Source of the DNA: Craspedostauros australis
Lineage: Eukaryota; Bacillariophyta; Bacillariophyceae; Mastogloiales; Achnanthaceae
Direction of reading: 5' to 3'
DNA length: 64,000 nucleotides
Assembly: GCA_026770025.1 (NCBI GenBank)
Contig: JAMXDE010000021.1
Span: forward strand, 1-64,000
Shown here one piece after another: positions 5,832 through 64,000 of the stretch. Within the stretch, counting starts at the first letter, position 1; each line of letters begins with the position of its first letter. The position numbers and the translations under genes were made by a program. Below the pieces are notes generated by a model, which worked only from the letters and a program-made list of their open reading frames with translations, did not search any database and was not told where the DNA came from.

Positions 5832-6593
5832 GTCACCATCCATTCCAATCTTCGAAGCGAGCAGTGCCAGTGTGGTGGAAAAACAAGAACCGACGAGCCA
5901 GCGCAGTCCAAGCATCCAGAGAGCTTGACGAGCAACAGAAGAAACCAACGAATCAACCAACCAACGAACCAACAAGCAACCCCATGCAGAGTGCGAGTAT
6001 TGTATTGCGGATCATGGTTGACACAGAGTTTCCATATGGCACAAGAATCATGCGGTCAGCGATCCATGGACCATGAGCACTGTATTCCCACATGTCCTCC
6101 TTCGTGGTGCTCCCAACTTCGTTGATGAGGCGGATGTTCTTGTCGATCGCCTCGGTTGAGCATCGATGCTCTGAAAGTCATGAGCCAAGACGGCGGCGCT
6201 CGTGCCTCTGGATAGAGCGCGCATGGTATTGTATGTTTGTGGTGGCGTGCAACAGGAACAGTGGAGGTGGCACGGTATCACTCCACCTGTTGATTGCTGA
6301 ACGTGTCACCCCATCCCAATATGCAATGTGGTGTTGGTTGGATGTTGAGGACTCTTGTTGCCCGCGCGGATGGTGATGCTTGCAATGCGGTGGGATGGCA
6401 ACCAGCCAAATCCAACTGAGATGGGTCGCAACCAACAGAGGCAATCAACAAAGGCAGTCACATTGGTGGCTTCATCTTTGTCCGAGGCATTGGCTCACAA
6501 CCTCAAGTTGGTGCTTGCGATGGCAGGCGGACGAGGGTCAGATGTCTTGCAGATGCCACGATGACGCAAGCAAGCGTGGGCCATGGTGCACAT
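5832..6593 (-). pseudogene. Gene N, copy U1: unknown protein, fragmented
   Basis: The family is not recognised. Conserved minus-strand blocks are seen: an ATG at 6593 opening MCTMAHACLRHRGICK, a block with FVDCLCW and FGWLPSHRI, and a block with EAIDKNIRLINEVG followed by TKEDMW and VPYGNS. The blocks lie in different frames. A TTTCAG just before the third block and AGGTGTGAG after the first could be splice sites, so this may be an intron-bearing gene. In type A the third block runs on in one frame into the Copia LTR. The P frame of the preceding cassette overlaps it antisense. Confidence 0.3.
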
Positions 6594-7111
6594 GGTGGTG
6601 GCGACGATGACAGCTCTCTGTGTTTCCGAAGACTTTCACGTTGTTTGCTTCGGATTGGTGTTGCGTTGATTGTGGCCAAACGAGAACTCTGTTGTGGTGC
6701 TTCTTTCTTGTTGTTGGTCGCACGCATTTTCGTGATGGATGGGAACAGAAAGATCCAATCCGCGCGAACCAGACGCGTTTGATCAAGAGAAGGAGACAAA
6801 CACAGGCAAACAGAAGGAGGAGACCATGCGAACAAGACAACAACACATACACACCACTCAACCGCATACTCAACCGCGTGAACAACAGACATCGAATTGC
6901 CACTCATATTCATCACACAGCGTATGGTGCTCATACTCATACTAATACAAGCTGTTGCATACACAAACATCGATATCTCTTCCATAGGCAGCTCCGACCA
7001 CAGACATCCTCGACAGCCAATCCAACGTAAATCGTCCAACGTCCAACGTCCAACGTCCAACGTCCAACGTCCAACGTCAATCGTCCAACAACCATCGACC
7101 ATCCTCTCAAA
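6594..7111. other. Upstream region between N and ANK
   Basis: A 518-base divergent interval between the putative N start and the ANK start. It holds A/C-rich and CA-rich stretches and the GTCCAAC microsatellite, but no convincing gene, TATA box or other named promoter element. The matching intervals in other copies are 14122-14627, 29309-29826, 43494-43999, 51321-51826 and 59148-59653. Confidence 0.5.
7034..7089. repeat. (GTCCAAC)n microsatellite before ANK, type A
   Basis: Six perfect 7-base GTCCAAC units, one variant (GTCAATC) and one more perfect unit, ending 22 bases before the ANK start codon. The same eight units occur at 29749-29804 in U3. Confidence 0.95.
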
Positions 7112-7894
7112 ATGCCGAATGTTTCGAACGAACAACTCTTTGATGCTGTCGAGGCAGGTGACTTGTCAGTGTTGAAGGAGTGGAAGAAGCAGAACGAGAC
7201 ACATAATGAAGGAAATGGTGTCGACAATGTCACAGACTGGAATGGTTCCACTCCCCTTCATGATGCATGCTCCAACGGCCACCTGGAGTGTGTCAAGTAC
7301 CTCATCGAATCATGTGAGGCGGACATCAGCTGCACCGCCAATGATGGTGACACTCCCCTTCATTGGGCATGCTACAACGGCCACCTGGAGTGTGTCAAGT
7401 ACCTCATCGAATCATGTGAGGCGAACATCAACTGCAAAGACAACGATGGTGACACTCCCCTTCATCTGGCATGCTACAACGGCCACCTGGAGTGTATCGA
7501 GTACCTCATCGAATCAGGTAGGGCTAACATCAACTGTCAAAACAACCGAGGTGAAACTCCCCTTCGTTGGGCATGCACGCATGGCCACCTGGAGTGTATG
7601 GAGTCCCTCATTAGAGGACTTTCACCTTCAGCTCACCCACAACTGCAACAACTGCAGCAACACTTACAACAAAACGAACAAGCAAATGAACAACCACAAG
7701 AACAGTTGAGACAGCAGTTGAAGCGAAAGAGCCAAGAGAATGAACACAAACACAGCAGCAACAAGAGGACCAACATCAACATTGGAGAAGATCGGCCATA
7801 TCCTTCCAAACCGAGAACAGGGCAGACACCATCCCCTCGTGTGGACAGAGCGACCAACAACAACCAATCAAGGCAAACTCTGGAGTCCTCATGA
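7112..7894 (+). CDS. Cysteine-rich ankyrin-repeat protein, type A (260 aa), U1
   Basis: Starts at ATG 7112 in CAAAATGCC. Domains: an N-terminal cap resembling a degenerate repeat (EAGDLSVLKEW, residues 13-25); four ankyrin repeats, three of 34 residues and one short (about residues 48-170), with the TPLHxAC and GHLECVKYL signatures; then a Gln-rich, probably coiled-coil segment (about 175-210) and a Lys/Asn/Ser-rich basic tail. Ankyrin repeats bind proteins; no enzyme domain, signal peptide or membrane segment is seen. Most repeats have Cys at positions 7, 14, 22 and 28, which is unusual. Its stop overlaps the ATG of the BTB frame (TCATGATC), suggesting the two were once one ankyrin-BTB gene. 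Type A keeps the full C-terminal tail that type B loses. Confidence 0.8.
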   Translation: MPNVSNEQLFDAVEAGDLSVLKEWKKQNETHNEGNGVDNVTDWNGSTPLHDACSNGHLECVKYLIESCEADISCTANDGDTPLHWACYNGHLECVKYLIESCEANINCKDNDGDTPLHLACYNGHLECIEYLIESGRANINCQNNRGETPLRWACTHGHLECMESLIRGLSPSAHPQLQQLQQHLQQNEQANEQPQEQLRQQLKRKSQENEHKHSSNKRTNINIGEDRPYPSKPRTGQTPSPRVDRATNNNQSRQTLESS

Positions 7895-8645
7895 TCGCTG
7901 CCCCATCCATTGAGACACTGATCAACTCTGGAATCCAACATCAATGCGCACATGATGGCACCAAGGACGGCGCGGCTCAATCCAAACAACCATCCCTCTT
8001 CCCCACCTCCAACCAAGGCACGTCCGATACGTCCTCCAATGCATCTACACAGGCAAGATATCCTTCAATGACAGCGCTCGTGACAACGCCGCCGCTCACA
8101 TCGGTGCTCACGCCAACGCTCACCACGATACAGATGCCTCTCACCAGCCAACTCATATCCTCACTGGACAGGATGATCTGCAACAGCTGATCCTTGTGGC
8201 CAACGAGTTCAGCTTCTGGCGACTCAAGCTTGTTCTTGAAGCAGAGTTGGCCCGCAATCATCTCACAGAAGACACCATGATAGATGTGTTGATATTCGCC
8301 CACCAACACAACTGCGTGGTGTTGAAGGATATGGCGATGAGAATGGCAGCTGAAAGTGAGAAGGATACGTTCACTCATCTAGATTTAAGCAAACTAATTC
8401 TACAACCTCAACTGATGGGAGGTATTCGTGTCCTCCGCAATGGGGGAGCGGAGAGTGATGGTATTGATGATGAGTACAGCCACATGTCCATGGTGGAGCT
8501 GTACAAGGTTATGGATCAGGATGAGGGTACAGCACAAGTGGATTCATACATGGATTGGGTGACATTGGTGGACTTCGTCCGCTCTCTGAGTACCAAATCA
8601 TCCATAGTGGTTGAGACGGACGGTGCTGCTGCAGAAGAGGAGTGA
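7891..8645 (+). pseudogene. BTB/POZ domain, back half only, copy U1
   Basis: The conserved part reads IPLPHLQP, RYVLQCIYTGKI, then LQQLILVANEFSFWRLKLV, LTEDTMIDVLIFAHQHN and VLKDMAMRMA. This is the second half of a BTB/POZ domain plus the start of a BACK-like helix bundle, as in substrate adaptors for cullin-3 ubiquitin ligases. The first half of the domain is not found nearby. In type A the frame opened by ATG 7891 does not connect to the conserved part: a shift between about 7960 and 7990 separates them. The conserved frame is open from 7956 to the stop at 8645 and ends in an acidic AAAEEE tail. Confidence 0.6.
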
Positions 8646-8649
8646 AGTG

Positions 8650-9830
8650 TCAGACCATTTCATACCATGCCATACCGTACCAGAAATCTTCCACAAGTGA
8701 ACGCATGGCGGAATTGAGTTGATTGATAAAAATAGTCGTCAGAATAGTCATTAGGATAGTAACTATATGAAAGGAGCTGGAGCAATTTATGATCGATTCA
8801 TTCAATGGTGCGTCCGGCATTCCTTCACCGTCCACCCTATCGTTCGCAGCGCGGTCTGGTTGGGCCGCGAGATACGCATAATCTTCTGTGAATGAATTGC
8901 AGATGATCCCGGTTGGCGTATGGCACGTTGGTGTGCATCATCATTTGCCAATGCGACATGAAGACGATGATTCAGCCACCGCTGTCATCGTCATGGTCGT
9001 CATTGCCGATCATATGGTTTCCGCATTTGCTTGTTTCGTTGGTGTGGAAGGAGGTGCGTGGGAAGCTATGGTGGACCTCGCTGGCGTCATGCATGGCTTG
9101 TAGGAATCGAATCCAACGTGACGGAGCGGGATGTACTACGGCTGTCAGCTTGTTGGTGGTGGTGGTGCTGCAGTTCGTGCATGATGTCGCGCAGGGCACA
9201 AGCGCATGCCAACAGCTGCTGTATGGTTTTCGATATGGCGGACCAAGATGATGAGCCATGGGAGAAGTTGCCAACGTCATTGTACACGGTTTCAATAATG
9301 GTGGATCCGATGAGAGCATGCCTCTATCTCATCGTTTGCGGTTTGTGGCGGAGATGCATCGCTTCGAGCATCGGTATGAGCAGGCGTGGCTGGTTGTGGT
9401 GCGTGTTGTGGAAACTGAGGAACATCTCCGAACTGATGGCTCTGTTGGTCTCGGGAAAGTCGCTGCGTCCGATCTCACGGATGCACCTGTCCAACATGTG
9501 CTGAATCTCCGTTTCAGACAACGCATCGGATGTTTATGTGCGTGGATGCTGCTGCTGATGACTTGAATCCAGACCGCACCATGGGCCATGACAAGTCTTG
9601 CCATTGCTGTTGGTTCTGTTGTTGGCTCTGCGATTTCACATGTCCCAAGCTCTCCTCTACTCCGGAGCAGTTGGTGTGATATCTTCCTTTCGGATGTCGC
9701 TGAGCGATGCGACAAGTTTGAGATAGCTGTTCATCACCGCTTGCCATTCATCATCGGCATCAGCGTCATCGTTGGCATCGTCATCGTCTCTTGCCATGGT
9801 CGCCTTCGTTGATTCTGGTTGGCGTGCCAT
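8650..9830 (-). pseudogene. Gene M, copy U1: unknown acidic/His-rich protein, broken
   Basis: The family is not recognised. From ATG 9830: an acidic start (MARDDDDA), DIRKEDI, ALSETEIQHMLDRCIREIG, PETNRAIS, LLIPMLEAM, GSTIIE, a coiled-coil-like ALRDIMHELQ with a short His run, then VHHSFPRTSFH and IGNDDHDDDS. Type A has an in-frame TAG after KPQTMR and has lost about 37 bases near 8825, which removes the IRECMEQHAVHI block seen in type B and shifts the end, so it lacks the type B PLNE stop. The gene converges on BTB with almost no gap. Confidence 0.4.
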
Positions 9831-10185
9831 ATTTGCGCAGCCGCCGCTTGCTTGATTACTTCATTGCTTCATTGCTCTGCTGCTTGACGGACAACGTCTC
9901 AGTGTTGGCTGATACCTCCATCAATGCAAACATAGTCATGCCACTTCATCTCTCTTGCTCTCTCTCTCTCTCTCTCTCTCTCTTTTGTGTTGATGTTGAT
10001 GTTGTTTGATGGATCATTGTGCAAAATCGGAGATTCGTCATTTGTGCGGCGCCAAGAATTTTTGGCGCGTTTGGTGGGTGCTCGTCTGTCTGCCATCCGT
10101 CGTTCATTCAACCAATGACACACGCACACACTCGCGACAAACATCACCAATGCGTTGTCTTCGTGCAATGCAACTCTGTTCGACG
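9831..10185. promoter_or_regulatory. Divergent M/S interval with (CT)n tract, type A
   Basis: A 355-base interval between the divergent starts of M and S, a natural place for a shared promoter. It contains an uninterrupted CT run of about 26 bases at 9958-9983 (U3: 32673-32698). In type B this is replaced by a short mixed pyrimidine stretch. No TATA box was recognised. Confidence 0.4.
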
Positions 10186-12569
10186 ATGGTGAGGGTGATG
10201 GCAACCACTCCAATGACGCCGCATCCCTTCACATTGGTATCACCACCACCAACACCAACGCAAACACAAACAATCAGACAAGATGACGAGGCATCGACAT
10301 CCAAGAGGAACTGTGGGAAGGCTCGCCAGTTGCTCCGTACCCTTGACCCACCCGTCGTACGATTATGAGTATTACTATGGAACCTTCCATGAGTACGATC
10401 TACTCTGGGAGTTGCCACAGCAAAGCGTCCAGCCTGATACTCTGTTCGAACCTGCGTCCAGCCCGTGCGCTCATGACAATCGAAGTTGCTGGAAGAGGAC
10501 GGTGACAGACTGATAGCAGAGAAGCAAACGGAGACCAGGCGACCGCAACAGGCCGACACGAAATCGAAGGCGAACAAGCCCACCAGCGTTGCCAAAGAGG
10601 CCAAACCAGCTGCAAAATCAGGTGGTCGTGCCAGTGTCAGCACAGATACACCAAGCAGCGCCAATAGAAGGACAGCCAAAGATGCGAAAGCTTCGGCTGT
10701 GAAACGATCACGTGCAAAGAGTCTGGAGATGCTCGACATGCAAGCTCACGAGATGTCATTCAGCTCCCTTGATCCCAACAAGTTCATCAACAACGAATCG
10801 ATGCCGGTGCCAATCACCCCAGGTGGACTCAGCTTCGCCACAGCCCCAGCACTTAGCGCAACCCGCAAATGGAGCAGTCAAGACAAGATGATGCTTGCGC
10901 AGAGTCGGAGACGCAGGCCAAGGACACAAACGAATTCCAACGCAACGACCAGCGGCGACAAATCGAGGAGCAAGAGTTTGGAATTCTCGAAGGACGGACA
11001 CAACATGCCAGTCACACCAGACACATTAGGCACATTGAGCGCAGCCAGCACCCTGGCTCTACCTCGAGTGGCGACAACGGAGACGTCACGCAGCAACAGC
11101 CTGGAGTCACGCTCCAATCTTCCAAATCTCCACGATGATGACAACGTCGACGTTGCGACAAGTGCTGCTGCAACGAATGGTGGGAGAAGCTTGGCGGCCC
11201 CTGTCACGCCTGGAGGTCGGAGCTCAGCATCTACACCAGCCCCGTTCAGCCACATACATGAATAGAGACAACAGTCTTCGTCGTTGAACAAGCGCAGGTC
11301 GACGTTGGCAAGCATCCTCAAGATCAAATCATCATCATTACGTGAAGTGTCGTCAACCAATCCTCCCAAATCGAAGCAACGACCATCTCTCGAATCCCGA
11401 CCATCGCAATTGGCCGACCTTGCCTTGACCAAAGCATCCGCAACGGCGTCATCATCATCGCCGTCACCACCGTCATCATCATCACAGTCCAAATCCAAGC
11501 TCAATCTTCAACAGTTCGAACGCAACCACGGAGGTGTCTCGGCCACAACCCCAAGCCCCATCCAGTCCTGGAGCCTTGAGTTTGGGAATCGAATTGCAAT
11601 CGAGCAAGAAGGAACGAGGGGCTCCTTCTCACAACAGATCTGCATGCAGTTCGTTGCGCCCAAGTGAAGACTCGAAGCAACGACGTTCACGCGGACGAAG
11701 CACGGGTGCTCTGCGTGAGGCGATCAAGGAAAGGATCTCCAAGGTGCTTGGCAATGGCCCCCGACGTCACCACTCCAGCAAAACAAGAGACGTGTCATCA
11801 CCATCGATACCACCATCGTTATCACCGTCGCCACGGCATCGGCGGAGAAGCGCGCATCACACCAGTGGCAAACCGCACTCGACATCGTCAAGATCAAAGA
11901 GTGTGGAGCGTTCGACATCATTGTGCCATCGTCGTGACGGAGCAATTCACACTTGCTCCTCTGGAAGAAGCCGCCGCTCGCCATCGGTGCGGAGTCGTCG
12001 AAGTCCGTCCGATCGCGATCACAGAAGAACTGCGCAAGTATCGATGGACTCATCGCCATCATCACGGCGACAACGAGCATCTGGCAGTTCGGATGATGTG
12101 AACGCAGCCTCGCGTTCACGCCAATCCAACTCAAATGCGCACTCCACCGGTACTGGTTTGCACCAACGCAAGGGCTCACCTTCCCGAACGCATGCCCGGG
12201 GAAGTTCACGAAGACCAAATCAATGTGGCCGTAGCCAATCGACACCACGTGGCGAAGATCAGCGAAGGAAGTCCTCTGATGAACGATCACCATCGGCGCG
12301 ACAACAAAGCAGATCAAGAGGATATCGAAATTAGAGCGTCGAACGGCACAGCGATGAGAGAGATGAAGATGGACGACATGGCGAACAACAACATGGCAAC
12401 AAACGTTCGTCATCACACGAGGCCCTTCAATCAAATTGTTGTGGACGAAGCAGATCATCGACTCGCGATGCTGTCTACCATGAGAAGCTGTCTGACACAA
12501 AGCCACTGCAACTCATATCAAAGAAAGCAGTCAGGAACAAGAGCGCGTCTCAGTACCGCCATCCCTTGA
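10186..12569 (+). pseudogene. Gene S, copy U1: Ser/Arg-rich low-complexity protein, broken
   Basis: Opens at ATG 10186 (MVRVMATTPM). Seen in order: a Tyr-rich block (YDYEYYYGTFHEYDLLWEL); a Lys/Ala/Ser-rich block; the related motifs VPITPGGLSFATAP and APVTPGGRSSASTPAP; NKRRSTLASIL; and an RS-type region (SRSKSVERS, SRSRGY) like that of SR-related splicing proteins. Breaks: a frame change near 10335 not present in type B; a frame change near 10485 shared with type B; TAG at 11263-11265; and a frame change near 11530. The frame from 11534 is open to 12334, and a shifted frame runs on to 12569. AATAAA lies at 12706. Confidence 0.55.
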
Positions 12570-12794
12570 TGAATGGTACCAAAACTCCCACCCTGTGATG
12601 CATCACGACATGATGGGATGGAATGAGATGGATGGGCCGCTCCGTATTTGTATCATACTCATAGAGGTATGGTAGACTCATGTCGCTGTATGAAATACAC
12701 CTACGAATAAACTGTACTTCTCTACGTATGTTTGGAACAGTACCGCATGCACTATATCTGCTCGTGCAATAGAACACTGTGATGAAGTCACCGG

Positions 12795-13676
12795 ATGTTT
12801 CAAGAGATTGAAGGGCTGGATACTGCTCCCGCGCTGCCTCTGCCTTGTCTACGACTACTCGTGTGCGCCCTCTGCAGTACATACCCACACAGGGATGTTG
12901 CCGATGTCATTCACGAACGGATTGGACATCTGTGGTTCCATCCACACTCCGCCATGAGCATCGTTGTTGGTTCGTTGCTCAGACAAAGGACGCATGGCAG
13001 CAGCATTATCACAAGCCGTGCGGTCGTCACCGTGCCGCCGGATTCACACACAGAACACTCCACTCCAAGTCACACTGCCAAACAGATTGAAAGCTACAGT
13101 GCCGATGCCAGCCGATCCAAGCTTCTGAAAGAGGCGATCTACGAAGAGCACATGGCGAACAAGGCAGAGGGAGATGATGAGAAGTCACGAGGAGCATGGG
13201 TGCTGCACGGTTCCATCGACTGTCTCGTATCACGCTATTGTCCTCATCTCTCCATGAGTTGCACTCCGCCATTGTGCCAAAACTGCAGTCGAGACCCTTG
13301 CCAAGCCCCAGGAGGAGTGATCACTCGCGGTTACAGCAACAATTGCCAGGGTCACCATCCATTCCAATCTTCGAAGCGAGCAGTGCCAGCGCGGCGGAAA
13401 TACAAGAATCGACGAGCCAGCGCAGTCCAAGCATCCAGAGAGCTTGACGAGCAAAAGAAGAAACCAACGAATCAACCAACCAACCAACAAGCAACCCCAT
13501 GCAGAGTGCGAGTGCCGTATTGCGGATCATGGTTGGCACAGAGTTTCCGTATGGCACAAGAAGCACATGGTCAGCGATCCCTGGCCCATTCGCGCACCGT
13601 ATACCCACATGTCCTCCTTCGTGGTGCTCCCAACTTCGTTGATGAGGCGGATGTTCCTGTCGATCGCCTCAGTTGA
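12795..13676 (+). CDS. P: 293-aa open frame of unknown function, U1
   Basis: Opens at ATG 12795 and crosses the cassette boundary into U2. Features: VADVIHERIGHLWFHPH, a Lys/Glu helix (KLLKEAIYEEHMANKAEGDD), then a cluster of Cys (CLVSRYC, CTPPLCQNCSRDPC) that could bind metal, and a Lys/Arg-rich C-terminal third. No family is recognised. It stays open in four of five copies, but its last third is antisense to gene N, so only one of the two may be real. Confidence 0.35.
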   Translation: MFQEIEGLDTAPALPLPCLRLLVCALCSTYPHRDVADVIHERIGHLWFHPHSAMSIVVGSLLRQRTHGSSIITSRAVVTVPPDSHTEHSTPSHTAKQIESYSADASRSKLLKEAIYEEHMANKAEGDDEKSRGAWVLHGSIDCLVSRYCPHLSMSCTPPLCQNCSRDPCQAPGGVITRGYSNNCQGHHPFQSSKRAVPARRKYKNRRASAVQASRELDEQKKKPTNQPTNQQATPCRVRVPYCGSWLAQSFRMAQEAHGQRSLAHSRTVYPHVLLRGAPNFVDEADVPVDRLS

Positions 13677-14121
13677 GCATCGATGCTCTGGAAGTCACGA
13701 GCCAAGACGGCGGCACTCATGCCTATTGATAGAATGCGCATGGTATTGTATGTTGGTGGTCCGTGTGGCAGGAACAGCGGAGGTGGCACGGTATCACTCC
13801 ACCTGTTGATTGCTGGACGTGTCAACTCATCCCCAATACACAATGTGGTGTTGGTTTGATGTTGGGGACTCTTGTTGCCCGTGCGGATGGTGATGGTTGC
13901 AATGCGGTGGGATGGCAACCAGCCAAATCCAAATGAGATGGGTCGCGACCAACACAGGCAATCAACAAAGGCAGTCACATTGGTGGCTCCATCGGTGGCT
14001 TCATGGTTGTTCGAGGCATTGGCTCACACCTCAAGTTGGTGCTTGTGATGGCAGGCGGACGAGGGGCAGCGGTCTTGCAGATGCCACGATGACGCAAGCA
14101 AGCGTGGGCCATGGTGCACAT
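13527..14121 (-). pseudogene. Gene N, copy U2, fragmented
   Basis: Type B version. Blocks: MCTMAHACLRHRGICK from ATG 14121, ITIRTGNKSPQH, ELTRPAINRWSDTVPPPL, MRILSIGMSAAVLARDFQ, then in another frame EAIDRNIRLINEVG and TKEDMWVYGARMGQG, ending LCQP at a TGA (13527). Compared with type A it shifts frame again after GARMGQG, so the VPYGNS block is out of frame. Unknown family; may contain introns. Confidence 0.3.
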
Positions 14122-14627
14122 GGTGGTGGCGGCGGTGGCGGCGACGATGACAGCTCTCTCTGTTTCCGAAGACTTTCACGTTGTTTGCTTCGGATTGGTG
14201 TTGCATTGATTGTGGCCAAACGAGAACTCTGTTGTGGTGCTTCTTTCTTGTTGTTGGTCGCACGCATTTTCGTGATGGATGGGAAACAGAAAGATCCAAT
14301 CCGCGCGAACCAGACGCGTTTGATCAAGGAGGAGACAAACACAGGCAAACAGAAGGAGGAGACCATGCGAACAAGACAACAGCACACACATCACCCAACC
14401 CCATACTCAACCGCGTGAACAACAGACATCGAATTGCCACTCATATTCATCACACAGCGTATGGCACTCATACTCATACTACTACAAGCTGTTGCAGACA
14501 CAAACATCGATATCTCTTCCATAGGCAGCTCCGACCACAGACATCCTCGACAGCCAATCCAACATAAATCGTCCAACGTCCAACGTCCAACGTCTATCGT
14601 CCAGCGACCATCCACCATACTCTCAAA

Positions 14628-15482
14628 ATGCCGAGTGTTACGAACGAACAACTCATTGATGCTGCCAAGGCAGGTGACTTGTCAGTGTTGAAGGAGTGGA
14701 AGAAGCAGAACGAGACACATAATGAAGGAAATGGTGTCAACATGGTTACAGACTGGGTTGGTCGGACTCCCCTTCTTTGGGCATGCTCCAACGGCAAGCT
14801 GGAGTGTGTCAAGTACCTCATCGAATCATGTGAGGCGGACATCAACTGCAAAACCAACCAAGGTTCCACTCCCCTTCATCTGGCATGCTACAACGGCCAC
14901 CTGGAGTGTGTCAAGTACCTCATCGAATCATGTGAGGCGGACATCAACTGCAAAGACAACGGTGGTGACACTCCCCTTCATGATGCATGCTACAACGGCC
15001 ACCTGGAGTGTGTCAAGTACCTCGTCGAATCATGTGAGGCGGACATCAACTGCAAAAGCAACCATGGTTCCACTCCCCTTCATCGGGCATGCTCCAACAG
15101 CCACCTGGAGTGTGTGAAGTACCTCATCGAATCATGTGAGGCGAATATCAACTGCCAAGACAGCGATGGTTGGACTCCCCTTCATGTGGCATGCCACAAA
15201 GGCCAGCTGGTGTGTGTGGAGTACCTCATCAAATCATGTGGGGCCGACGTCAACTGCAAAGCCAACAGTGGTTGGACTCCCCTTCATGACGCATGCTGCA
15301 ACGGCCACCTGGAGTGTATGGAGTCCCTCATCAGAGGACTTTCGCCTTCAGTTCACCCACAACTGCAACAACTGCAGCAACGCTTACAACAAAACGAGCA
15401 AGAGAATAAGCAGCCACAAGAACAGTTGGGACAGCAGTTGACACAGAAGGAACAGAGAATGAGCAACTGCAACAACAGCTGA
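14628..15482 (+). CDS. Cysteine-rich ankyrin-repeat protein, type B (284 aa), U2
   Basis: ATG 14628. It has the same cap as type A but six ankyrin units (five of 34 residues and one short, about residues 47-240), two more than type A. A 53-base insertion in the Gln-rich tail, just before ...NCNNS, shifts the frame and ends the protein early. The remaining type A tail (KRKKQENEHKHS...) can still be read out of frame downstream. The predicted protein is identical in U2, U4, U5 and U6. Confidence 0.78.
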   Translation: MPSVTNEQLIDAAKAGDLSVLKEWKKQNETHNEGNGVNMVTDWVGRTPLLWACSNGKLECVKYLIESCEADINCKTNQGSTPLHLACYNGHLECVKYLIESCEADINCKDNGGDTPLHDACYNGHLECVKYLVESCEADINCKSNHGSTPLHRACSNSHLECVKYLIESCEANINCQDSDGWTPLHVACHKGQLVCVEYLIKSCGADVNCKANSGWTPLHDACCNGHLECMESLIRGLSPSVHPQLQQLQQRLQQNEQENKQPQEQLGQQLTQKEQRMSNCNNS

Positions 15483-15663
15483 GACAGCAGTTGAAGCGAA
15501 AGAAGCAAGAGAATGAGCACAAACACAGCACCCACAAGAGGACCAACATCAGCATTGGAGAAGACAGCTCAGATGCTTCCAAACCAAGAACAGGACAGAC
15601 CCCATCTTCTTGTGTGGACAGGGCGACGAACAACAACGAATCAAAGCAAACTCTGAACTTCTC

Positions 15664-16452
15664 ATGATCACCGTCCCATCCATTGAGACACTGATCGACA
15701 AAGGAATCCGACATCAGCACACGAATGATGACACTCACGATGGAACTGAATCCATGCAAGTAACCATTCCTCTTCCCGATCTTCAACCAAGGCATGTCCG
15801 ATAAATCCTCCAATACATCTACACAGGCAAGATATCCTTCAATGACAGCGCTCGTGACAACTCTGCTGCTCACGCCAGTGCTCATGTTGGCGCCCACGTT
15901 CACGCCCACACTCACCACGATGTGGATGCCTCTTACCAGCCAACTCCCATCCTCACTGGACAGGATGATCCGCAACAGCTGATCCTTGTGGCCAACGAGT
16001 TCGGTTTCTGGCGACTCAAGCTTGTTCTTGAAGCAGAGTTGGCCCGCAAGCATCTCACAGAAGACACCATGATAGATGTGTTGATATTCGCCCACCAACA
16101 CAACGGCGTGGTGTTGAAGGATGCAGCAATGAGAATGGCAACTGCAAGTGATAAAGATATGTTCACTCATCTAGATTTAAGCAAACTGATTCTACAACCC
16201 CAACTGATGATAAGTATTCTTGCCCTCCGCAGTGAGGGAGCCAAGAGTGATGGTATTGATGATGAGTACAGTCACATGCCCATGGTGGACCTGCACAAGG
16301 TCATAGATGAGGAGAAGGGTACAGCACAAGTGGATTCATACATGGATCGGGAAACATTGGTGGACTTCGTCCGCTCAATGAGAACCAGCTCTATGAGAGC
16401 CAATGGATCCGAAGTGATTGTGGTGGACGGCACTGCCGAGGAAGAGGAGTGA
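15664..16452 (+). pseudogene. BTB/POZ domain, back half, copy U2 with internal stop
   Basis: Unlike type A, ATG 15664 is in frame with the conserved part: VTIPLPDLQPRHVR, then a TAA stop (15802-15804), then ILQYIYTGKISF and LQQLILVANEFGFWRLKLV to the stop at 16452. In type A the matching codon is TAC. The first half of the BTB fold is again missing. Confidence 0.6.
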
Positions 16453-16590
16453 AGTGTCAGACCATACCAAATCATAACAGAAGTCTTCAAGAAGTGAACG
16501 CATGACAGAATTGAGTCGATGGATAAAACTAGTCGTCAGAATAGTCATTAGGATAGTAACTATGTGAAAGGAGCTGGAGCAAATAGTGAT

Positions 16591-21475: not shown

Positions 21476-21498
21476 CTCGCCCTCAGGTGTTGAATGCG

Positions 21499-31360: not shown

Positions 31361-31364
31361 AGTG

Positions 31365-49910: not shown

Positions 49911-49993
49911 CTGTACTTCTCTACGTATGCTTGGAACAGTACCGCATGCACTATATCTGCTTGTGCAACAGAACACTGTGATGAAGTCACCGG

Positions 49994-53651: not shown

Positions 53652-53789
53652 AGTGTCAGACCATACCAAATCATAACAGAAGTCTTCAAGAAGTGAACGC
53701 ATGACAGAATTGAGTCGATGGATAAAACTAGTCGTCAGAATAGTCATTAGGATAGTAACTATGTGAAAGGAGCTGGAGCAAATAGTGAT

Positions 53790-54877
53790 TCATTCATTCA
53801 ATGGTGCGTCCGGCATTCCTTCACCGTCGCCTTTGGTGATGTGCACAGCATGCTGCTCCATGCACTCCCGTATCGTTCGCAGCGCGGTTTGGTTGGGCCG
53901 CGAGATGCGCAAGGTCTTCTGTGCATGAATTGCAGATGATCCTGGTTGGTGTTCGGCACGTTGCCGTGCATCATCATTGGCCAATGCGACATGAAGAGGA
54001 TGGAGCAGCCACCGCTGTCATCGTCGTGGTCGTCATTGCCGATCAAATGGTTTCCGCGTTCGTTGGTTTCGTTGGCGTGGAAGGAGTTGTGTGGGAAGCT
54101 ATGGTGGACCCTGTTGGCGTCATGCATGGCTTGTTGGACTCGAATCCAACATGACGAGGTGGAGCGTATTGCGACAGTTAGCTTGTTGTTGGTGGTGGTG
54201 GTGGTGCTGCTGCTGCAGTTTGTGCACGATGTCGCGCAAGGCACGCATGTATGCCAGCAGCTGCATGGTTTTCGATAGGTATGGCCGACAAAGATGACGA
54301 GCAATGGAAGAAGTTGCCAACGTCATTGCACAGGATTTCAATAATGGTGGATCCAAGGAGACAGTGCCTCTGTCTCATCATTTGCGGTTTGTGGTGGCGA
54401 CGTATCGCTTCGAGCATCGGTATGAGCAGGCGTGGCTGGTTGTGGTGCGTGTAGTGGGGACTGAGGAACATCTCCACACTGATGGCTCTGTTGGTCTCGG
54501 GAAAAGTCGCTGCGTCCAATCTCACAGATGCATCCGTCCAACATGTGTTGAATCTCCGTTTCCGACAACGCATCGTACGTTTCTGTGCGTGCGCGCGGCT
54601 GCTGATGACTTGAATCCAGACCGCACCACGGGCCATGACATGTCTTGCCGTTGCTGTTGACACTGTTGTTGGCGCTGCGATTTCCCATGTCCCAAGCTCT
54701 CCTCTACTCCGGAGCAGTTGGTTTGATATCTTCCTTTCTGATGTTTCTGAGCGATGTGGCACGTTGGAGATCGCTGTTCGTCGCCGCTTGCCATTCATCA
54801 TCTGTATCAGCGTCATCATCGGCATCGTCATCGTCTCTTGCCATGGCCGCCTTCGTTGATTCTGGTTGGCGTGCCAT
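53790..54877 (-). pseudogene. Gene M, copy U5 (type B), broken
   Basis: Identical to U4 by eye, with the same two frame changes and the intact PLNE end. Confidence 0.4.
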
Positions 54878-55221
54878 AGTTGCGCAGCCGCAGCTTGCTT
54901 GATTACATCATTTCTTCGTTGCTGTTTTTATTCATTTCTTTGTTGGAGAATGTCTCAGTGTTGGCTGATACCTCCATCAATGTAAACATCGTCATGCCAT
55001 TTCATCACCCTCTCTTTCCTTCTCTCTTGTTGTGTTGATGTTGTTTGATGGATCTTGTGCAAAATGGAAGATCCGTTGTTTTGGGTGGTGTCAAGAATTT
55101 TTGGCGCGTTTGGTAAGCACTCGTCTGTCTGCCATCCGTTGTTCATTCAACCAATGACACACACAAACACTCACAACGAACACCACCAATGCGTTGTCTT
55201 CGTGCAATGCAACTCTGATCC

Positions 55222-57596
55222 ATGATTGTGAGGGTGATGGCAACCACTCCAATGACGCCGCATCCCTTCACATTGGTACCACCGACGCAAACACCAACAC
55301 AAACAATCAGACAAGATGACGAGGCATTGACATCCAAGAGGAACTGTGGGAAGGCTCGCCGGTTGCTCCGCACCTTGACCCACCCGTCCTACGACTATGA
55401 GTATTACTATGGAACCTTCCATGAGCACGATCTACTCTGGGAGTTGCCACAGCAAAGCGTCCAGCCTGATACTCTGTTCGAACCTGCGTCCAGCCCGTGC
55501 GCTCATGATAATCGAAGTTGCTGGAAGAGGACGGTGTCAGACTGATAGCAGAGAAGCAAACGGAGACCAGGCAACCGCAACAGGCCGACACGAAATCAAA
55601 GGCGAGCAATCCCACCAGCGTTGCCAAAGAGGCCAAAGCAGCTGCAAAATCAGGTCGTCATGCGAGTGTCAGCACAGATACACCAAGCAGCACCAATAGA
55701 AGTACAGCAAAAGATGCGAAAGCTTCAGCTGTGAAACCATCACGTGCGAAGAGTCTGGACATGCTCGACATGCAAGCTCATGAGATGTCATTCAGCTCCC
55801 TTGATCCCTGCAAGTTCATCAACAACGAACCGATGTCGGTGCCAATCACCCCAGGTGGACTCAGCTTCGCCACAGCCCCAACTCTCGGCACAATCCGCGA
55901 ACGGATCAACCAAGACAAGACGAAGCTTGCGCAGAGTCGGAGACGCAGGCCAAGGACACAACCGAATTCCAACGCAACGACCAGCGGCGACAAATCGAGG
56001 AGCAAGTGTTTGGAATTCTCGAAGGACGGACGCAACATGCCAGGCACAACATACACATCAGACATACCAGGCGCGATGAGCGCAGCCAGCACCCCGACTC
56101 TACCTCAAGTTGCGACAACGGAGACGTCACGCAGCAACAGCCTGGAGTCACGCTCCAATCTTCCAAATCTCCACGATGATGACAACGTCGACGTTGCGAC
56201 AAGTGCTGCTGCAACGAATGGTGGGAGAAGCTCTGTGGCCCCTGTCACACCTGGAGGTCGGAGTGCGGCATCTACACCAGCCCCCTTCAACCGCACACAT
56301 GAAGAAAGACAACAGTCTTTGTCGTTGAACAAGCGCAGGTCAACGTTGGCAAGCATCCTCAAGGCCAAACGATCATCATTACGTGAAGTATCGTCGACCA
56401 ATCTTCCCAAATCGAAGCAATGACCATCTCTCGAATCTCGACCATCGCAATTGGCCGATCTTGCCTTGACTGAAGCATCCGCAAAGGCGCCATCATCGCC
56501 ATCATCATCGCCGTCGCCACCGTCGCCATCATCACAGTCCAAATCCAAACTCAATCTTCAACAGTTCGAACGCGAACACGAACACAGAGGTGTCTCGGCC
56601 GCACCCCCAGCCTCATCCACTCCTGAAGCCTTGAGTTTGGGAATCAAATGGCAATCGAGCAAGAAGGAACAGGTGACTCCTTCTCGCAACAGATCTGCAT
56701 GCAGTTCGTTGCGCCCAAGTGAAGACTCAAAGCAACGACGTTCACGCGGACGTAGCACGGGTGCTCTGCGCGATGAGATCAAGGAAAGGATCTCCAAGGT
56801 GCTTAGCAATGGGCCCCGACATCACCACTCCAGCAAAACAAGAGACGTGTCATCACCATCGATATCACCGTCGCCACGACATCGGCGGAGAAGCGCACAG
56901 CACACCAGTGGCAAGCCTCACTCGACATCGTCAAGATCAAAGAGTGTGGAGCGTTCGCTATCATTGCGTCATCATCGTGACGGAGAAATTCACACATCCT
57001 CCTCTGGAAGAAGCCGCTGCTCGCCATCGGCGCGGAGCCGTCGAGGCCCGTCCGACCGCGGCCGCAGAAGAACTGTGAAAGTATCGACGGACTCATCGCC
57101 ATCATCACGGCGACAAGGAGCATCTGGCAGTTCGGATGATATACACGCAGTCTCGCGCTCACGCAAAGCCAACTCAAATGCGCACTCCACCGGTACTGGT
57201 TTGCACCAACGCAAGTCTCACCTTTCCGAACGCATGCCCGAGGAAGGTCGCGAAGACCAAATCAACGTGACCGTAGCCAATCGACACCACGTGGCGAAGA
57301 TAAGTGAAGGAAGTCCTCTGATGAACGATCACCATCGGCACGACAATGAAACAGATCAAGAGGATATCGAAATTACAACGTCGAACAGCACAGCAATGCG
57401 AGAGATGAAGATGGACGGCATTGCAAGGAACGTCCGTCATCACGCGGGGGCCTTCAATCAAATCGTCGTGGACGAAGCAGATCATCGACTCGCGATGCTG
57501 TCTACCATGAGAAGCTGTCCGGCACAAAATCACTGCAACTCACACCAAAGAAAGTGGTCAGGAACAAGAGCGCGTCTCAGTGCCGCCATCCCTTGA
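55222..57596 (+). pseudogene. Gene S, copy U5 (type B), broken
   Basis: Same state as U4, with TGA at 56421-56423 and a long open second half (56451-57596). Confidence 0.55.
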
Positions 57597-57820
57597 TGAA
57601 TGGTACCAACCTCCCAACCCGTAATGCATGACGACACGATGGGATGGAATGAGATGTGTGGGCCGCTCCGTATTTGTATCATGCTCATAGAGGTATGGTA
57701 GACCCACATCCCTGTATGTAATACACCTACGAATAAACTGTACTTCTCTACGTATGCTTGGAACAGTACCGCATGCACTATATCTGCTTGTGCAACAGAA
57801 CACTGTGATGAAGTCACCGG

Positions 57821-58702
57821 ATGCTTCACGAGATTGAAGGGCTGGATACTGCTCCCATGCTGCCTCCGCCCTGTCTACGACGAGTCTGGTCTGCTCTCTA
57901 CGATACATACGCACAGACGGATGTTGCCGATGTCATTCACAAGCAGATTGGACATCTGTGGTTCCATCCACACTCCGCCATGAGCATCGTTGTTGGTTCG
58001 TTGCTCAGACAAAGGACGCATGGCAGCAGCATTATCACAAGCCGTGCGGTCGTCACCGTGCCGCCGGATTCACACACAGAACACTCCACTCCAAGTCACA
58101 CTGCCAAACAGATTGAAAGCTACAGTGCCGATGCCAGCCGATCCAAGCTTCTGAAAGAGGCGATCTACGAAGAGCACATGGCGAACAAGGCAGAGGGAGA
58201 TGATGAGAAGTCACGAGGAGCATGGGTGCTGCACGGTTCCATCGACTGTCTCGTATCACGCTATTGTCCTCATCTCTCCATGAGTTGCACTCCGCCATTG
58301 TGCCAGAACTGCAGTCGAGACCCTTGCCAAGCCCCAGGAGGAGTGATCACTCGCGGTTACAGCAACAATTGCCAGGGTCACCATCCATTCCAATCTTCGA
58401 AGCGAGCAGTGCCAGCGCGGCGGAAAGACAAGAACCGACGAGCCAGCGCAGTCCAAACATCCAGAGAGCTTGACGAGCAAAAGAAGAAACCAACGAATCA
58501 ACCAACCAACCAACAAGCAACCCCATGCAGAGTGCGAGTGCCGTATTGCGGATCATGGTTGGCACAGAGTTTCCGTATGGCACAAGAAGCACATGGTCAG
58601 CGATCCCTGGCCCATTCGCGCACCGTATACCCACATGTCCTCCTTCGTGGTGCTCCCAACTTCGTTGATGAGGCGGATGTTCCTGTCGATCGCCTCAGTT
58701 GA
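57821..58702 (+). CDS. P: 293-aa open frame, copy U5
   Basis: Translation identical to U4. It crosses into U6. Confidence 0.35.
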   Translation: MLHEIEGLDTAPMLPPPCLRRVWSALYDTYAQTDVADVIHKQIGHLWFHPHSAMSIVVGSLLRQRTHGSSIITSRAVVTVPPDSHTEHSTPSHTAKQIESYSADASRSKLLKEAIYEEHMANKAEGDDEKSRGAWVLHGSIDCLVSRYCPHLSMSCTPPLCQNCSRDPCQAPGGVITRGYSNNCQGHHPFQSSKRAVPARRKDKNRRASAVQTSRELDEQKKKPTNQPTNQQATPCRVRVPYCGSWLAQSFRMAQEAHGQRSLAHSRTVYPHVLLRGAPNFVDEADVPVDRLS

Positions 58703-59147
58703 GCATCGATGCTCTGGAAGTCACGAGCCAAGACGGCGGCACTCATGCCTATTGATAGAATGCGCATGGTATTGTATGTTGGTGGTCCGTGTGGCAGGAA
58801 CAGCGGAGGTGGCACGGTATCACTCCACCTGTTGATTGCTGGACGTGTCAACTCATCCCCAATACACAATGTGGTGTTGGTTTGATGTTGGGGACTCTTG
58901 TTGCCCGTGCGGATGGTGATGGTTGCAATGCGGTGGGATGGCAACCAGCCAAATCCAAATGAGATGGGTCGCGACCAACACAGGCAATCAACAAAGGCAG
59001 TCACATTGGTGGCTCCATCGGTGGCTTCATGGTTGTTCGAGGCATTGGCTCACACCTCAAGTTGGTGCTTGTGATGGCAGGCGGACGAGGGGCAGCGGTC
59101 TTGCAGATGCCACGATGACGCAAGCAAGCGTGGGCCATGGTGCACAT
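58553..59147 (-). pseudogene. Gene N, copy U6, fragmented
   Basis: Same blocks and frame changes as U5; putative start at ATG 59147. Confidence 0.3.
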
Positions 59148-59653
59148 GGTGGTGGCGGCGGTGGCGGCGACGATGACAGCTCTCTCTGTTTCCGAAGACT
59201 TTCACGTTGTTTGCTTCGGATTGGTGTTGCATTGATTGTGGCCAAACGAGAACTCTGTTGTGGTGCTTCTTTCTTGTTGTTGGTCGCACGCATTTTCGTG
59301 ATGGATGGGAAACAGAAAGATCCAATCCGCGCGAACCAGACGCGTTTGATCAAGGAGGAGACAAACACAGGCAAACAGAAGGAGGAGACCATGCGAACAA
59401 GACAACAGCACACACATCACCCAACCCCATACTCAACCGCGTGAACAACAGACATCGAATTGCCACTCATATTCATCACACAGCGTATGGCACTCATACT
59501 CATACTACTACAAGCTGTTGCAGACACAAACATCGATATCTCTTCCATAGGCAGCTCCGACCACAGACATCCTCGACAGCCAATCCAACATAAATCGTCC
59601 AACGTCCAACGTCCAACGTCTATCGTCCAGCGACCATCCACCATACTCTCAAA

Positions 59654-60508
59654 ATGCCGAGTGTTACGAACGAACAACTCATTGATGCTGCCAAGGCAGG
59701 TGACTTGTCAGTGTTGAAGGAGTGGAAGAAGCAGAACGAGACACATAATGAAGGAAATGGTGTCAACATGGTTACAGACTGGGTTGGTCGGACTCCCCTT
59801 CTTTGGGCATGCTCCAACGGCAAGCTGGAGTGTGTCAAGTACCTCATCGAATCATGTGAGGCGGACATCAACTGCAAAACCAACCAAGGTTCCACTCCCC
59901 TTCATCTGGCATGCTACAACGGCCACCTGGAGTGTGTCAAGTACCTCATCGAATCATGTGAGGCGGACATCAACTGCAAAGACAACGGTGGTGACACTCC
60001 CCTTCATGATGCATGCTACAACGGCCACCTGGAGTGTGTCAAGTACCTCGTCGAATCATGTGAGGCGGACATCAACTGCAAAAGCAACCATGGTTCCACT
60101 CCCCTTCATCGGGCATGCTCCAACAGCCACCTGGAGTGTGTGAAGTACCTCATCGAATCATGTGAGGCGAATATCAACTGCCAAGACAGCGATGGTTGGA
60201 CTCCCCTTCATGTGGCATGCCACAAAGGCCAGCTGGTGTGTGTGGAGTACCTCATCAAATCATGTGGGGCCGACGTCAACTGCAAAGCCAACAGTGGTTG
60301 GACTCCCCTTCATGACGCATGCTGCAACGGCCACCTGGAGTGTATGGAGTCCCTCATCAGAGGACTTTCGCCTTCAGTTCACCCACAACTGCAACAACTG
60401 CAGCAACGCTTACAACAAAACGAGCAAGAGAATAAGCAGCCACAAGAACAGTTGGGACAGCAGTTGACACAGAAGGAACAGAGAATGAGCAACTGCAACA
60501 ACAGCTGA
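59654..60508 (+). CDS. Cysteine-rich ankyrin-repeat protein, type B (284 aa), U6
   Basis: Six ankyrin units; translation identical to U2, U4 and U5. Confidence 0.78.
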   Translation: MPSVTNEQLIDAAKAGDLSVLKEWKKQNETHNEGNGVNMVTDWVGRTPLLWACSNGKLECVKYLIESCEADINCKTNQGSTPLHLACYNGHLECVKYLIESCEADINCKDNGGDTPLHDACYNGHLECVKYLVESCEADINCKSNHGSTPLHRACSNSHLECVKYLIESCEANINCQDSDGWTPLHVACHKGQLVCVEYLIKSCGADVNCKANSGWTPLHDACCNGHLECMESLIRGLSPSVHPQLQQLQQRLQQNEQENKQPQEQLGQQLTQKEQRMSNCNNS

Positions 60509-60689
60509 GACAGCAGTTGAAGCGAAAGAAGCAAGAGAATGAGCACAAACACAGCACCCACAAGAGGACCAACATCAGCATTGGAGAAGACAGCTCAGAT
60601 GCTTCCAAACCAAGAACAGGACAGACCCCATCTTCTTGTGTGGACAGGGCGACGAACAACAACGAATCAAAGCAAACTCTGAACTTCTC

Positions 60690-61478
60690 ATGATCACCGT
60701 CCCATCCATTGAGACACTGATCGACAAAGGAATCCGACATCAGCACACGAATGATGACACTCACGATGGAACTGAATCCATGCAAGTAACCATTCCTCTT
60801 CCCGATCTTCAACCAAGGCATGTCCGATAAATCCTCCAATACATCTACACAGGCAAGATATCCTTCAATGACAGCGCTCGTGACAACTCTGCTGCTCACG
60901 CCAGTGCTCATGTTGGCGCCCACGTTCACGCCCACACTCACCACGATGTGGATGCCTCTTACCAGCCAACTCCCATCCTCACTGGACAGGATGATCCGCA
61001 ACAGCTGATCCTTGTGGCCAACGAGTTCGGTTTCTGGCGACTCAAGCTTGTTCTTGAAGCAGAGTTGGCCCGCAAGCATCTCACAGAAGACACCATGATA
61101 GATGTGTTGATATTCGCCCACCAACACAACGGCGTGGTGTTGAAGGATGCAGCAATGAGAATGGCAACTGCAAGTGATAAAGATATGTTCACTCATCTAG
61201 ATTTAAGCAAACTGATTCTACAACCCCAACTGATGATAAGTATTCTTGCCCTCCGCAGTGAGGGAGCCAAGAGTGATGGTATTGATGATGAGTACAGTCA
61301 CATGCCCATGGTGGACCTGCACAAGGTCATAGATGAGGAGAAGGGTACAGCACAAGTGGATTCATACATGGATCGGGAAACATTGGTGGACTTCGTCCGC
61401 TCAATGAGAACCAGCTCTATGAGAGCCAATGGATCCGAAGTGATTGTGGTGGACGGCACTGCCGAGGAAGAGGAGTGA
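60690..61478 (+). pseudogene. BTB/POZ domain, back half, copy U6 with internal stop
   Basis: TAA at 60828-60830; otherwise as U4. Confidence 0.6.
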
Positions 61479-61616: not shown

Positions 61617-62704
61617 TCATTCATTCAATGGTGCGTCCGGCATTCCTTCACCGTCGCCTTTGGTGATGTGCACAGCATGCTGCTCCATGCACTCCCGTAT
61701 CGTTCGCAGCGCGGTTTGGTTGGGCCGCGAGATGCGCAAGGTCTTCTGTGCATGAATTGCAGATGATCCTGGTTGGTGTTCGGCACGTTGCCGTGCATCA
61801 TCATTGGCCAATGCGACATGAAGAGGATGGAGCAGCCACCGCTGTCATCGTCGTGGTCGTCATTGCCGATCAAATGGTTTCCGCGTTCGTTGGTTTCGTT
61901 GGCGTGGAAGGAGTTGTGTGGGAAGCTATGGTGGACCCTGTTGGCGTCATGCATGGCTTGTTGGACTCGAATCCAACATGACGAGGTGGAGCGTATTGCG
62001 ACAGTTAGCTTGTTGTTGGTGGTGGTGGTGGTGCTGCTGCTGCAGTTTGTGCACGATGTCGCGCAAGGCACGCATGTATGCCAGCAGCTGCATGGTTTTC
62101 GATAGGTATGGCCGACAAAGATGACGAGCAATGGAAGAAGTTGCCAACGTCATTGCACAGGATTTCAATAATGGTGGATCCAAGGAGACAGTGCCTCTGT
62201 CTCATCATTTGCGGTTTGTGGTGGCGACGTATCGCTTCGAGCATCGGTATGAGCAGGCGTGGCTGGTTGTGGTGCGTGTAGTGGGGACTGAGGAACATCT
62301 CCACACTGATGGCTCTGTTGGTCTCGGGAAAAGTCGCTGCGTCCAATCTCACAGATGCATCCGTCCAACATGTGTTGAATCTCCGTTTCCGACAACGCAT
62401 CGTACGTTTCTGTGCGTGCGCGCGGCTGCTGATGACTTGAATCCAGACCGCACCACGGGCCATGACATGTCTTGCCGTTGCTGTTGACACTGTTGTTGGC
62501 GCTGCGATTTCCCATGTCCCAAGCTCTCCTCTACTCCGGAGCAGTTGGTTTGATATCTTCCTTTCTGATGTTTCTGAGCGATGTGGCACGTTGGAGATCG
62601 CTGTTCGTCGCCGCTTGCCATTCATCATCTGTATCAGCGTCATCATCGGCATCGTCATCGTCTCTTGCCATGGCCGCCTTCGTTGATTCTGGTTGGCGTG
62701 CCAT
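61617..62704 (-). pseudogene. Gene M, copy U6 (type B), broken
   Basis: Same as U4 and U5. Confidence 0.4.
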
Positions 62705-63048
62705 AGTTGCGCAGCCGCAGCTTGCTTGATTACATCATTTCTTCGTTGCTGTTTTTATTCATTTCTTTGTTGGAGAATGTCTCAGTGTTGGCTGATACCT
62801 CCATCAATGTAAACATCGTCATGCCATTTCATCACCCTCTCTTTCCTTCTCTCTTGTTGTGTTGATGTTGTTTGATGGATCTTGTGCAAAATGGAAGATC
62901 CGTTGTTTTGGGTGGTGTCAAGAATTTTTGGCGCGTTTGGTAAGCACTCGTCTGTCTGCCATCCGTTGTTCATTCAACCAATGACACACACAAACACTCA
63001 CAACGAACACCACCAATGCGTTGTCTTCGTGCAATGCAACTCTGATCC

Positions 63049-64000
63049 ATGATTGTGAGGGTGATGGCAACCACTCCAATGACGCCGCATCCCTTCACAT
63101 TGGTACCACCGACGCAAACACCAACACAAACAATCAGACAAGATGACGAGGCATTGACATCCAAGAGGAACTGTGGGAAGGCTCGCCGGTTGCTCCGCAC
63201 CTTGACCCACCCGTCCTACGACTATGAGTATTACTATGGAACCTTCCATGAGCACGATCTACTCTGGGAGTTGCCACAGCAAAGCGTCCAGCCTGATACT
63301 CTGTTCGAACCTGCGTCCAGCCCGTGCGCTCATGATAATCGAAGTTGCTGGAAGAGGACGGTGTCAGACTGATAGCAGAGAAGCAAACGGAGACCAGGCA
63401 ACCGCAACAGGCCGACACGAAATCAAAGGCGAGCAATCCCACCAGCGTTGCCAAAGAGGCCAAAGCAGCTGCAAAATCAGGTCGTCATGCGAGTGTCAGC
63501 ACAGATACACCAAGCAGCACCAATAGAAGTACAGCAAAAGATGCGAAAGCTTCAGCTGTGAAACCATCACGTGCGAAGAGTCTGGACATGCTCGACATGC
63601 AAGCTCATGAGATGTCATTCAGCTCCCTTGATCCCTGCAAGTTCATCAACAACGAACCGATGTCGGTGCCAATCACCCCAGGTGGACTCAGCTTCGCCAC
63701 AGCCCCAACTCTCGGCACAATCCGCGAACGGATCAACCAAGACAAGACGAAGCTTGCGCAGAGTCGGAGACGCAGGCCAAGGACACAACCGAATTCCAAC
63801 GCAACGACCAGCGGCGACAAATCGAGGAGCAAGTGTTTGGAATTCTCGAAGGACGGACGCAACATGCCAGGCACAACATACACATCAGACATACCAGGCG
63901 CGATGAGCGCAGCCAGCACCCCGACTCTACCTCAAGTTGCGACAACGGAGACGTCACGCAGCAACAGCCTGGAGTCACGCTCCAATCTTCCAAATCTCCA
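63049..64000 (+). pseudogene. Gene S, copy U6, partial (window edge)
   Basis: The front part of type B S: Tyr-rich block, frame change near 63345, Lys/Ala/Ser-rich block and the first TPGG motif. The RS region lies beyond the window. Confidence 0.5.

Follow-up and report, generated by a model that had tools for sequence, protein, structure and literature searches.

Tandem ANK-BTB gene cassettes in Craspedostauros australis, probably one recombining and decaying cluster of a genome-wide family

We analysed a stretch of 64,000 bp from the diatom Craspedostauros australis (assembly GCA_026770025.1, 74.8 Mb in 90 contigs), which makes up positions 1-64000 of contig JAMXDE010000021.1 (1,281,368 bp, hereafter C19) and is called the window below. 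From 5832 to 64000 it holds direct repeats of a cassette of 7.5-7.9 kb with a gene for ankyrin repeats (ANK) and a BTB domain, and we conclude that this array is probably one recombining cluster of a genome-wide ANK-BTB family, that the copies in the window have decayed and that open relatives elsewhere are probably Cullin-3 adaptors. Self-BLAST resolves six units, far beyond what chance would give, all on the forward strand: U1 at 5832-13350 (7519 bp), U2 at 13351-21228 (7878 bp), U3 at 28549-36065 (7517 bp, near-identical to U1), U4 at 36066-50549 (7833 bp once the 6651-bp long terminal repeat (LTR) element that splits it at 36390-43040 is subtracted), the chimeric U5 at 50550-58376 (7827 bp) and U6, which starts at 58377, passes the window end to reach 66208 in C19 and is identical to U5 as far as compared. 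This bears out the initial annotation in so far as it described a large cassette repeated head to tail in six copies. The order is less simple than was proposed, since two Ty1/copia elements interrupt it (one between U2 and U3 and one inside U4), and the unit start placed at 5832 is a copia junction and not a unit boundary. The array begins before the window, as the end of another contig (C8) carries overlapping array DNA that includes a further unit, U0, and downstream of the window a more diverged unit occupies C19:70425-78486 and part of another 88448-90856. The intervals between these later copies (67187-70424 and 78487-88447 in C19) gave no cassette match among the listed alignments of at least 600 bases, and no RNA family reached the gathering threshold in the window.

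Each unit carries a remnant of the ANK-BTB gene on the forward strand. In U1 (7112-8642) an ANK open reading frame (ORF) at 7112-7894 is accompanied by BTB pieces in two other frames, one from 7798 and one from 7980, and in U2 (14628-16449) an ANK ORF at 14628-15482, which matches Pfam Ank, precedes a BTB part that starts at 15598 in another frame and has one internal stop. The U3 remnant (29827-31357) shares with U1 the frame shifts before and within BTB, and those of U4 (44000-45821), U5 (51827-53648) and U6 (59654-61475) share with U2 the frame change ahead of BTB and the single stop within it. None of the six units keeps ANK and BTB in one open frame; as U3 is here a copy of U1, and U4-U6 are copies of U2, the lesions amount to two sets and not to six independent ones. 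The ANK and BTB frames had been taken for separate genes, but three open relatives carry both in a single frame and the two are thus frameshifted parts of one gene. The shared ANK start (MP..NEQL.DA.KAGDLSVLKEWKK and variants), when inspected by eye, shows no hydrophobic leader, which suggests that ANK-BTB proteins stay inside the cell. Ahead of this start codon there is a 7-bp unit, TCCAACG, in 0 to 8 copies (7021-7089 and 14558-14610 in the window, among others), and of the 21 starts found 19 have a leader that ends in CTCAAA.

The second recognisable part of the cassette is a forward-strand frame labelled S. In U1 (10480-11379) it is a fragment of a serine/arginine-rich (Ser/Arg-rich) gene with an internal TAG, and matches to it lie at 33195-34094 in U3, 47685-48593 in U4, 55512-56420 in U5 and from 63339 to the window end (64247 in the contig) in U6. 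Together with the DNA that follows, S matches a Ser/Arg-rich open frame on contig C39, of 1858 aa as a whole and 1746 aa in the stretch taken. In U2 the region of S and of the neighbouring frame P (18344-21197) aligns to the C39 locus in two blocks, 18344-20481 at 88% and 20485-21197 at 86%, with the start of the gene cut off and 1838 bp of the C39 locus missing between 20481 and 20485. As judged from these alignments, S is a shortened copy of the Ser/Arg-rich gene that is open on C39, and S and P both derive from that single locus. The C39 protein matches no Pfam family, and a Pfam search with P, S, the minus-strand frame M and further ORFs of the unit gave nothing above the cut-off. Looking for a single-copy source of the cassette in the rest of the genome, we found many related loci and, for S, this longer frame.

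Whether the remaining frames of the unit are genes was judged by the stops they have acquired. We took 15 frames and counted their stops in five other copies (two for N-, 13571- and 13894+, and four for P) against a simulation that assumes independent substitutions and unrelated copies; the C6a, C17 and U8 stretches used for this were cut near the start of BLAST homology. The stops seen and expected were 0/18.1 for ANK, 3/8.7 for BTB, 4/9.6 for S and 0/5.8 for P, with 3/8.4 for 19798+, 1/4.5 for 19559+ and 1/2.3 for 13894+. On the minus strand they were 15/12.9 for M-, 4/11.2 for 15331-, 1/2.5 for N-, 2/4.0 for 13571-, 8/4.3 for 19778-, 2/3.4 for 18108-, 7/6.8 for 17139- and 1/4.5 for 18906-. 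The codon periodicity of the variation between units is weak everywhere, and so by itself neither proves nor excludes genes. The initial annotation had proposed that each unit holds four to six genes whose strands alternate, which would give two divergent intervals; what is left of this is one ANK-BTB gene and one S/P locus, as M- has as many stops as chance would give and in three of the five other copies homology begins only at 14325-14586, so that N- (14031-14390) is missing there.

The cassette is found well beyond this array. The S protein gave 94 matches that group into 66 loci, or, once two in the C8 overlap are set aside, 64 loci on 26 contigs; eight of the 64 belong to this array region, one is the C39 gene, and some matches are weak or incomplete, with identities that go down to 32%. 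For the BTB part we used 150 listed matches out of 305 candidates, on which the following counts of BTB neighbours rest. A same-strand BTB lies upstream of S within 12 kb at no fewer than 44 of the 64 loci (median distance 1865 bp), and at least 37 of the 64 have it 1-3.5 kb upstream, eight of them in this array region, with five more at 894-931 bp. Among the listed BTB matches one locus has a BTB 1-3.5 kb downstream of S and none has one on the opposite strand within 12 kb, and 20 S loci have no neighbouring BTB among the 150. There are 26 spacings between S loci of less than 30 kb, and 12 of these measure 6.5-8.5 kb (three in the window and nine elsewhere); tandem cassettes of this size therefore occur at several loci.

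In many members of the family the BTB frame is open. Of the 150 BTB matches listed, at least 50 are free of stops and belong to a frame of at least 500 aa, the BTB match being the criterion here, and nine cassettes elsewhere have their BTB in an open frame of at least 500 aa, among them L001, which was confirmed to have both ankyrin repeats and BTB. All three open relatives that we picked for their openness (L001 with 645 aa and two on C15 with 705 and 671 aa) have Pfam Ank and BTB above the cut-off. The genome also holds a Cullin-3-like gene on C24, whose best PDB match is Cullin-3 at 474 bits, compared with 386 bits for Cullin-4B. At C2:355283-362497 an open frame of 2469 aa contains numerous ankyrin repeats together with a BTB match.

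The ankyrin repeats themselves vary mainly at a few positions on a conserved framework. A strict set of 103 distinct 34-residue repeats, from 11 sources including both open and broken genes, was collected with a pattern that required P7, L8, L17, C19, T or P at position 6 and G or S at 15, so that the constancy of these residues is by construction. A looser set of 115 repeats required only T-P-L at 6-8; L17 was still present in 108 of these and C19 in 107. The most variable positions of the 103 repeats are 1, 2, 3, 5, 10, 13 and 14, and the same seven have the highest entropy in the looser set (1.98-3.41, the next being 1.76). At positions 2, 3, 5, 10, 13 and 14 the proportion of nonsynonymous differences (pN) is 0.513 against an overall synonymous proportion (pS) of 0.198 in the strict set, and 0.522 against 0.261 in the looser one, and when sources are resampled the ratio of the two ranges over 2.24-3.04 and 1.46-2.72, respectively. 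Framework positions outside the selection pattern have pN 0.099 and pS 0.167 in the looser set. The nonsynonymous to synonymous rate ratio (dN/dS) of the ANK region exceeds 1 in seven of ten pairs (range 0.61-1.32), and at four-fold silent sites genes differ by 0.056 in the framework codons and by 0.121 in BTB. For the U2 ANK ORF, AlphaFold run on the single sequence gave a model with two helices per repeat and a mean predicted local distance difference test score (pLDDT) of 72.9; the other four models reached means of 36-39. By our own reading of the former, the varied positions would fall in the loop before the first helix of the repeat and within that helix. Pairwise counts thus give an excess of amino-acid change at the predicted binding face on a conserved framework, and this variation suggests a repertoire of variable ankyrin binders on putative BTB adaptors of the Cullin-3 type. 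Concerted evolution within a gene was not seen in these repeats, distances within and between genes being similar (0.458/0.115 and 0.496/0.134). A diversity-generating retroelement was considered as a source of the variable codons and rejected, because TGG, ATG, TTG and ACG at varied positions do not fit adenine-only change.

Comparison of the units points to exchange between them. They are 90-100% identical, with U5, U6 and most of U4 exactly alike: 43041-59359 equals 50868-67186 over 16,319 bp, so that 43041-67186 is an exact repeat with a period of 7827 bp. U1 differs from U3 by only 3 substitutions and 2 gap columns, and the identity to U2 is 90.4% for U1 and likewise 90% for U3. U5 is 97.7% identical to U2 over the whole unit, in an uneven way: the two are identical over 50868-56524, then fall to 87-94% per 300-bp step, and the last ~480 bp of U5 are 97-99% like U1. 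From 14868 on, U0 of C8 is 99.8% identical to U2, with 12 substitutions clustered within 85 bp, and its ankyrin part before 14868 is only ~84% identical and in a shifted register; this jump places a breakpoint of U0 inside the ankyrin repeats. Two higher-order copies of the copia-U1-U2 type differ by 14 substitutions in two clusters over 21,522 bp. Such breakpoints and clustered differences would be what unequal recombination and conversion among the units leave behind.

Our explanation starts from a repeated segment that would be an ANK-BTB gene plus downstream DNA holding a shortened copy of a Ser/Arg-rich gene. The array would have grown by unequal homologous recombination, either crossing-over or conversion, between its units, and the copies in the window would be dead or dying members of a cluster that recombines and takes up retroelements. 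Open relatives elsewhere would probably work as Cullin-3 adaptors, with a BTB(-BACK) region docking on the Cullin-3-like protein and an ankyrin solenoid, with its variation on the predicted binding face, picking the targets. Several observations weigh against parts of this. BACK-type matches stay below the Pfam cut-off in the three open relatives, the BTB region of one open relative retrieved a single PDB chain (SPOP, E=0.62), and at E<=10 Pfam finds nothing in the BTB part of the window (15805-16449). With dN/dS at 0.50-0.78 in seven BTB pairs, all of which include U2, and at 0.56-1.10 in 11 S pairs, the copies compared seem to be under weak constraint. The variable repeat positions were chosen from the same data on which they were then assessed, by simple pairwise counts. 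As pS at the variable codons is high as well (0.424 in the strict and 0.457 in the looser set), the pN contrast rests on the overall pS, and overall pN is close to overall pS (0.244 and 0.261, looser set). Identical repeats common to different genes number four of 103, all of them between U0 and U2. Antisense frames over ANK/BTB (4 stops against 11.2) and S (1 against 4.5) are also short of stops, so that only the ANK deficit is striking and those of BTB, S and P are no proof of genes; each ANK alignment, moreover, has 1-3 gap runs that are not a multiple of three. Finally, introns could in principle take out some of the lesions in the window.

The array might also owe its form to the assembler, by over-counting or mis-joining. 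C19 starts inside the array and its first 30,858 bp match the end of C8 (2578663-2609500) at 99.66%, in a comparison that ends 994 bases before the C8 terminus; the first ~31 kb of the window are therefore not extra copies relative to C8. Over 14868-30858 the two contigs show zero substitutions and 17 one-base indels, ten of them beyond 29,000 and so towards the end of C8, and at the other contig end the differences cluster in C19:1-3500. In both contigs errors crowd at the end that carries the shared array DNA, which is the pattern of a poor contig-end consensus and, with the exact repeat of 43041-67186, would fit an artefact. On the other hand, there is 10% divergence between U1 and U2, individual units carry private insertions and breakpoints, and spacings of cassette size recur at other loci. 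Assemblers usually collapse exact repeats rather than add them. Unit divergence and private insertions speak against a pure artefact, which we consider unlikely, and the copy number stays uncertain because the assembly breaks inside the array.

Two other explanations accept the array and give it a different role. In one, the cassette is a functional set of four to six genes whose joint amplification would serve dosage or variation. The shortage of stops in ANK, S and P is what this would lead one to expect, but BTB is broken in every unit, S lacks 1838 bp of the longer gene, M- and 19778- have more stops than the simulation expects, and the deficits on the antisense strand resemble those of S and BTB. 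With N- absent from three of five copies and little codon periodicity on top of this, we regard a functional cassette as very improbable. In the other, the broken ankyrin segments of the cassettes form a store from which open ANK-BTB genes would receive sequence by recombination, in the manner of pseudogene archives for variable surface antigens. That the ANK part stays open as BTB decays, and that the breakpoint of U0 falls inside the ankyrin repeats, would agree with this, as would the finding that the nearest relative of a repeat is in another gene for 75 of 109 repeats, although chance alone also favours other genes. Yet no identical repeat was common to a broken cassette and an open gene in our sample, where sharing was limited to U0 and U2, and an archive of this kind seems improbable to us. 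A decaying cluster of a dispersed ANK-BTB family remains the reading that we prefer.

The array can be set beside several known systems. Macrosatellites such as D4Z4 and DXZ4 consist of multi-kilobase tandem units, and the head-to-tail units found here are of that size. The initial annotation used this label, which suggests a satellite specific to one or a few loci; here, in contrast, the S part of the unit is dispersed over its many loci and contigs, and the unit is a segment of a gene family. The MATH-BTB families of nematodes and grasses are large families of BTB adaptors with a fast-evolving substrate-binding domain, which is MATH in place of ankyrin repeats. In designed ankyrin repeat proteins (DARPins) the varied positions are 2, 3, 5, 13, 14 and 33. 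DARPin libraries have six randomised positions per repeat (PMC9611651, PMC8683736) and likewise vary positions on a fixed framework, but they are engineered, and position 10 also varies here. In the repeat domains of fungal NOD-like receptors (NLRs), according to the sections of PMC4986451 consulted, the variable and selected ankyrin sites lie on the concave face, with positive selection and shuffling of repeats. The repeats described here are similar to these in being highly alike, with few hypervariable positions on a predicted binding surface (PMC4986451), and unlike them in that the partner domain is BTB and not NOD/NACHT and that repeats are hardly more alike within than between genes. 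Closest to tandem ANK-BTB cassettes or to ANK-BTB expansions in protists, in the literature searched, is the work on plasmodiophorid ANK proteins, an expanded family with a polymorphic repeat surface and 17 members with a SKP1/BTB/POZ domain (PMC12503489). The expansion, the union of ANK and BTB in one protein and the polymorphic surface are all shared with our family; the plasmodiophorid proteins come from predicted secretomes, unlike the leaderless ones here, and the passages of PMC12503489 consulted describe no tandem cassette.

There are precedents for ANK-BTB proteins, for ankyrin repeats that diversify and for tandem gene clusters, each by itself. A dispersed tandem cassette combined with a conserved repeat framework was not found in the literature searched, which lay mostly outside subscription papers. 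As a repeat, the array is ordinary amplification and decay of a gene cluster, and the family behind it matters more. If the open ANK-BTB proteins are indeed variable Cullin-3 adaptors, they would be a natural counterpart to designed binder-degraders, and this genome would be a place to ask how a eukaryote diversifies intracellular recognition. A bolder version, which we hold to be unlikely, is that of a natural library of probably more than 100 DARPin-like ankyrin solenoids that share a single conserved framework with ~6-7 varied positions per repeat, many of them coupled to BTB for Cullin-3-driven destruction of targets, and with the broken cassettes as a reservoir from which recombination makes new combinations of ankyrin repeats.

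The retroelements that interrupt the array are both young. The one between U2 and U3 (21229-28548, minus strand, 7320 bp) has an ORF with RVT_2 at 21499-25959 and identical 247-bp LTRs at 21229-21475 and 28302-28548, and is flanked by the target duplication GTCAC, which marks 5832 and 28549 as copia insertion sites. An incomplete copy of this element occupies 1-5831 on the minus strand at the contig end, where the consensus is poor, so that its broken frames over 1-3500 should not be taken as decay. A genome search with the 21229-28548 element gave 20 matches, seven of them full length at 96-100%; two of these seven, in the end of C8, are by position the same DNA as the two copies in the window. 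The second element (36390-43040, plus strand), inserted in U4, has an ORF at 37825-42321 with gag, integrase and RVT_2, and its empty site is seen in U2 and U5. Its left LTR has two outer blocks, of 158 and 510 bp, to which the right LTR is identical, and nested in the left LTR at 36548-37294 is a 747-bp insertion with internal inverted repeats, not assigned to a strand; related DNA (87%) lies at C6:601833-602590. Both elements have the LTRs, the target duplication and the order of integrase before RVT_2 of Ty1/copia, with RVT_2 and an SH3-like domain above the Pfam cut-off and the integrase-core families rve and rve_3 below it. Elsewhere in the genome, four actin genes in mixed orientation lie within 14 kb of each other at C6:1241609-1255120.

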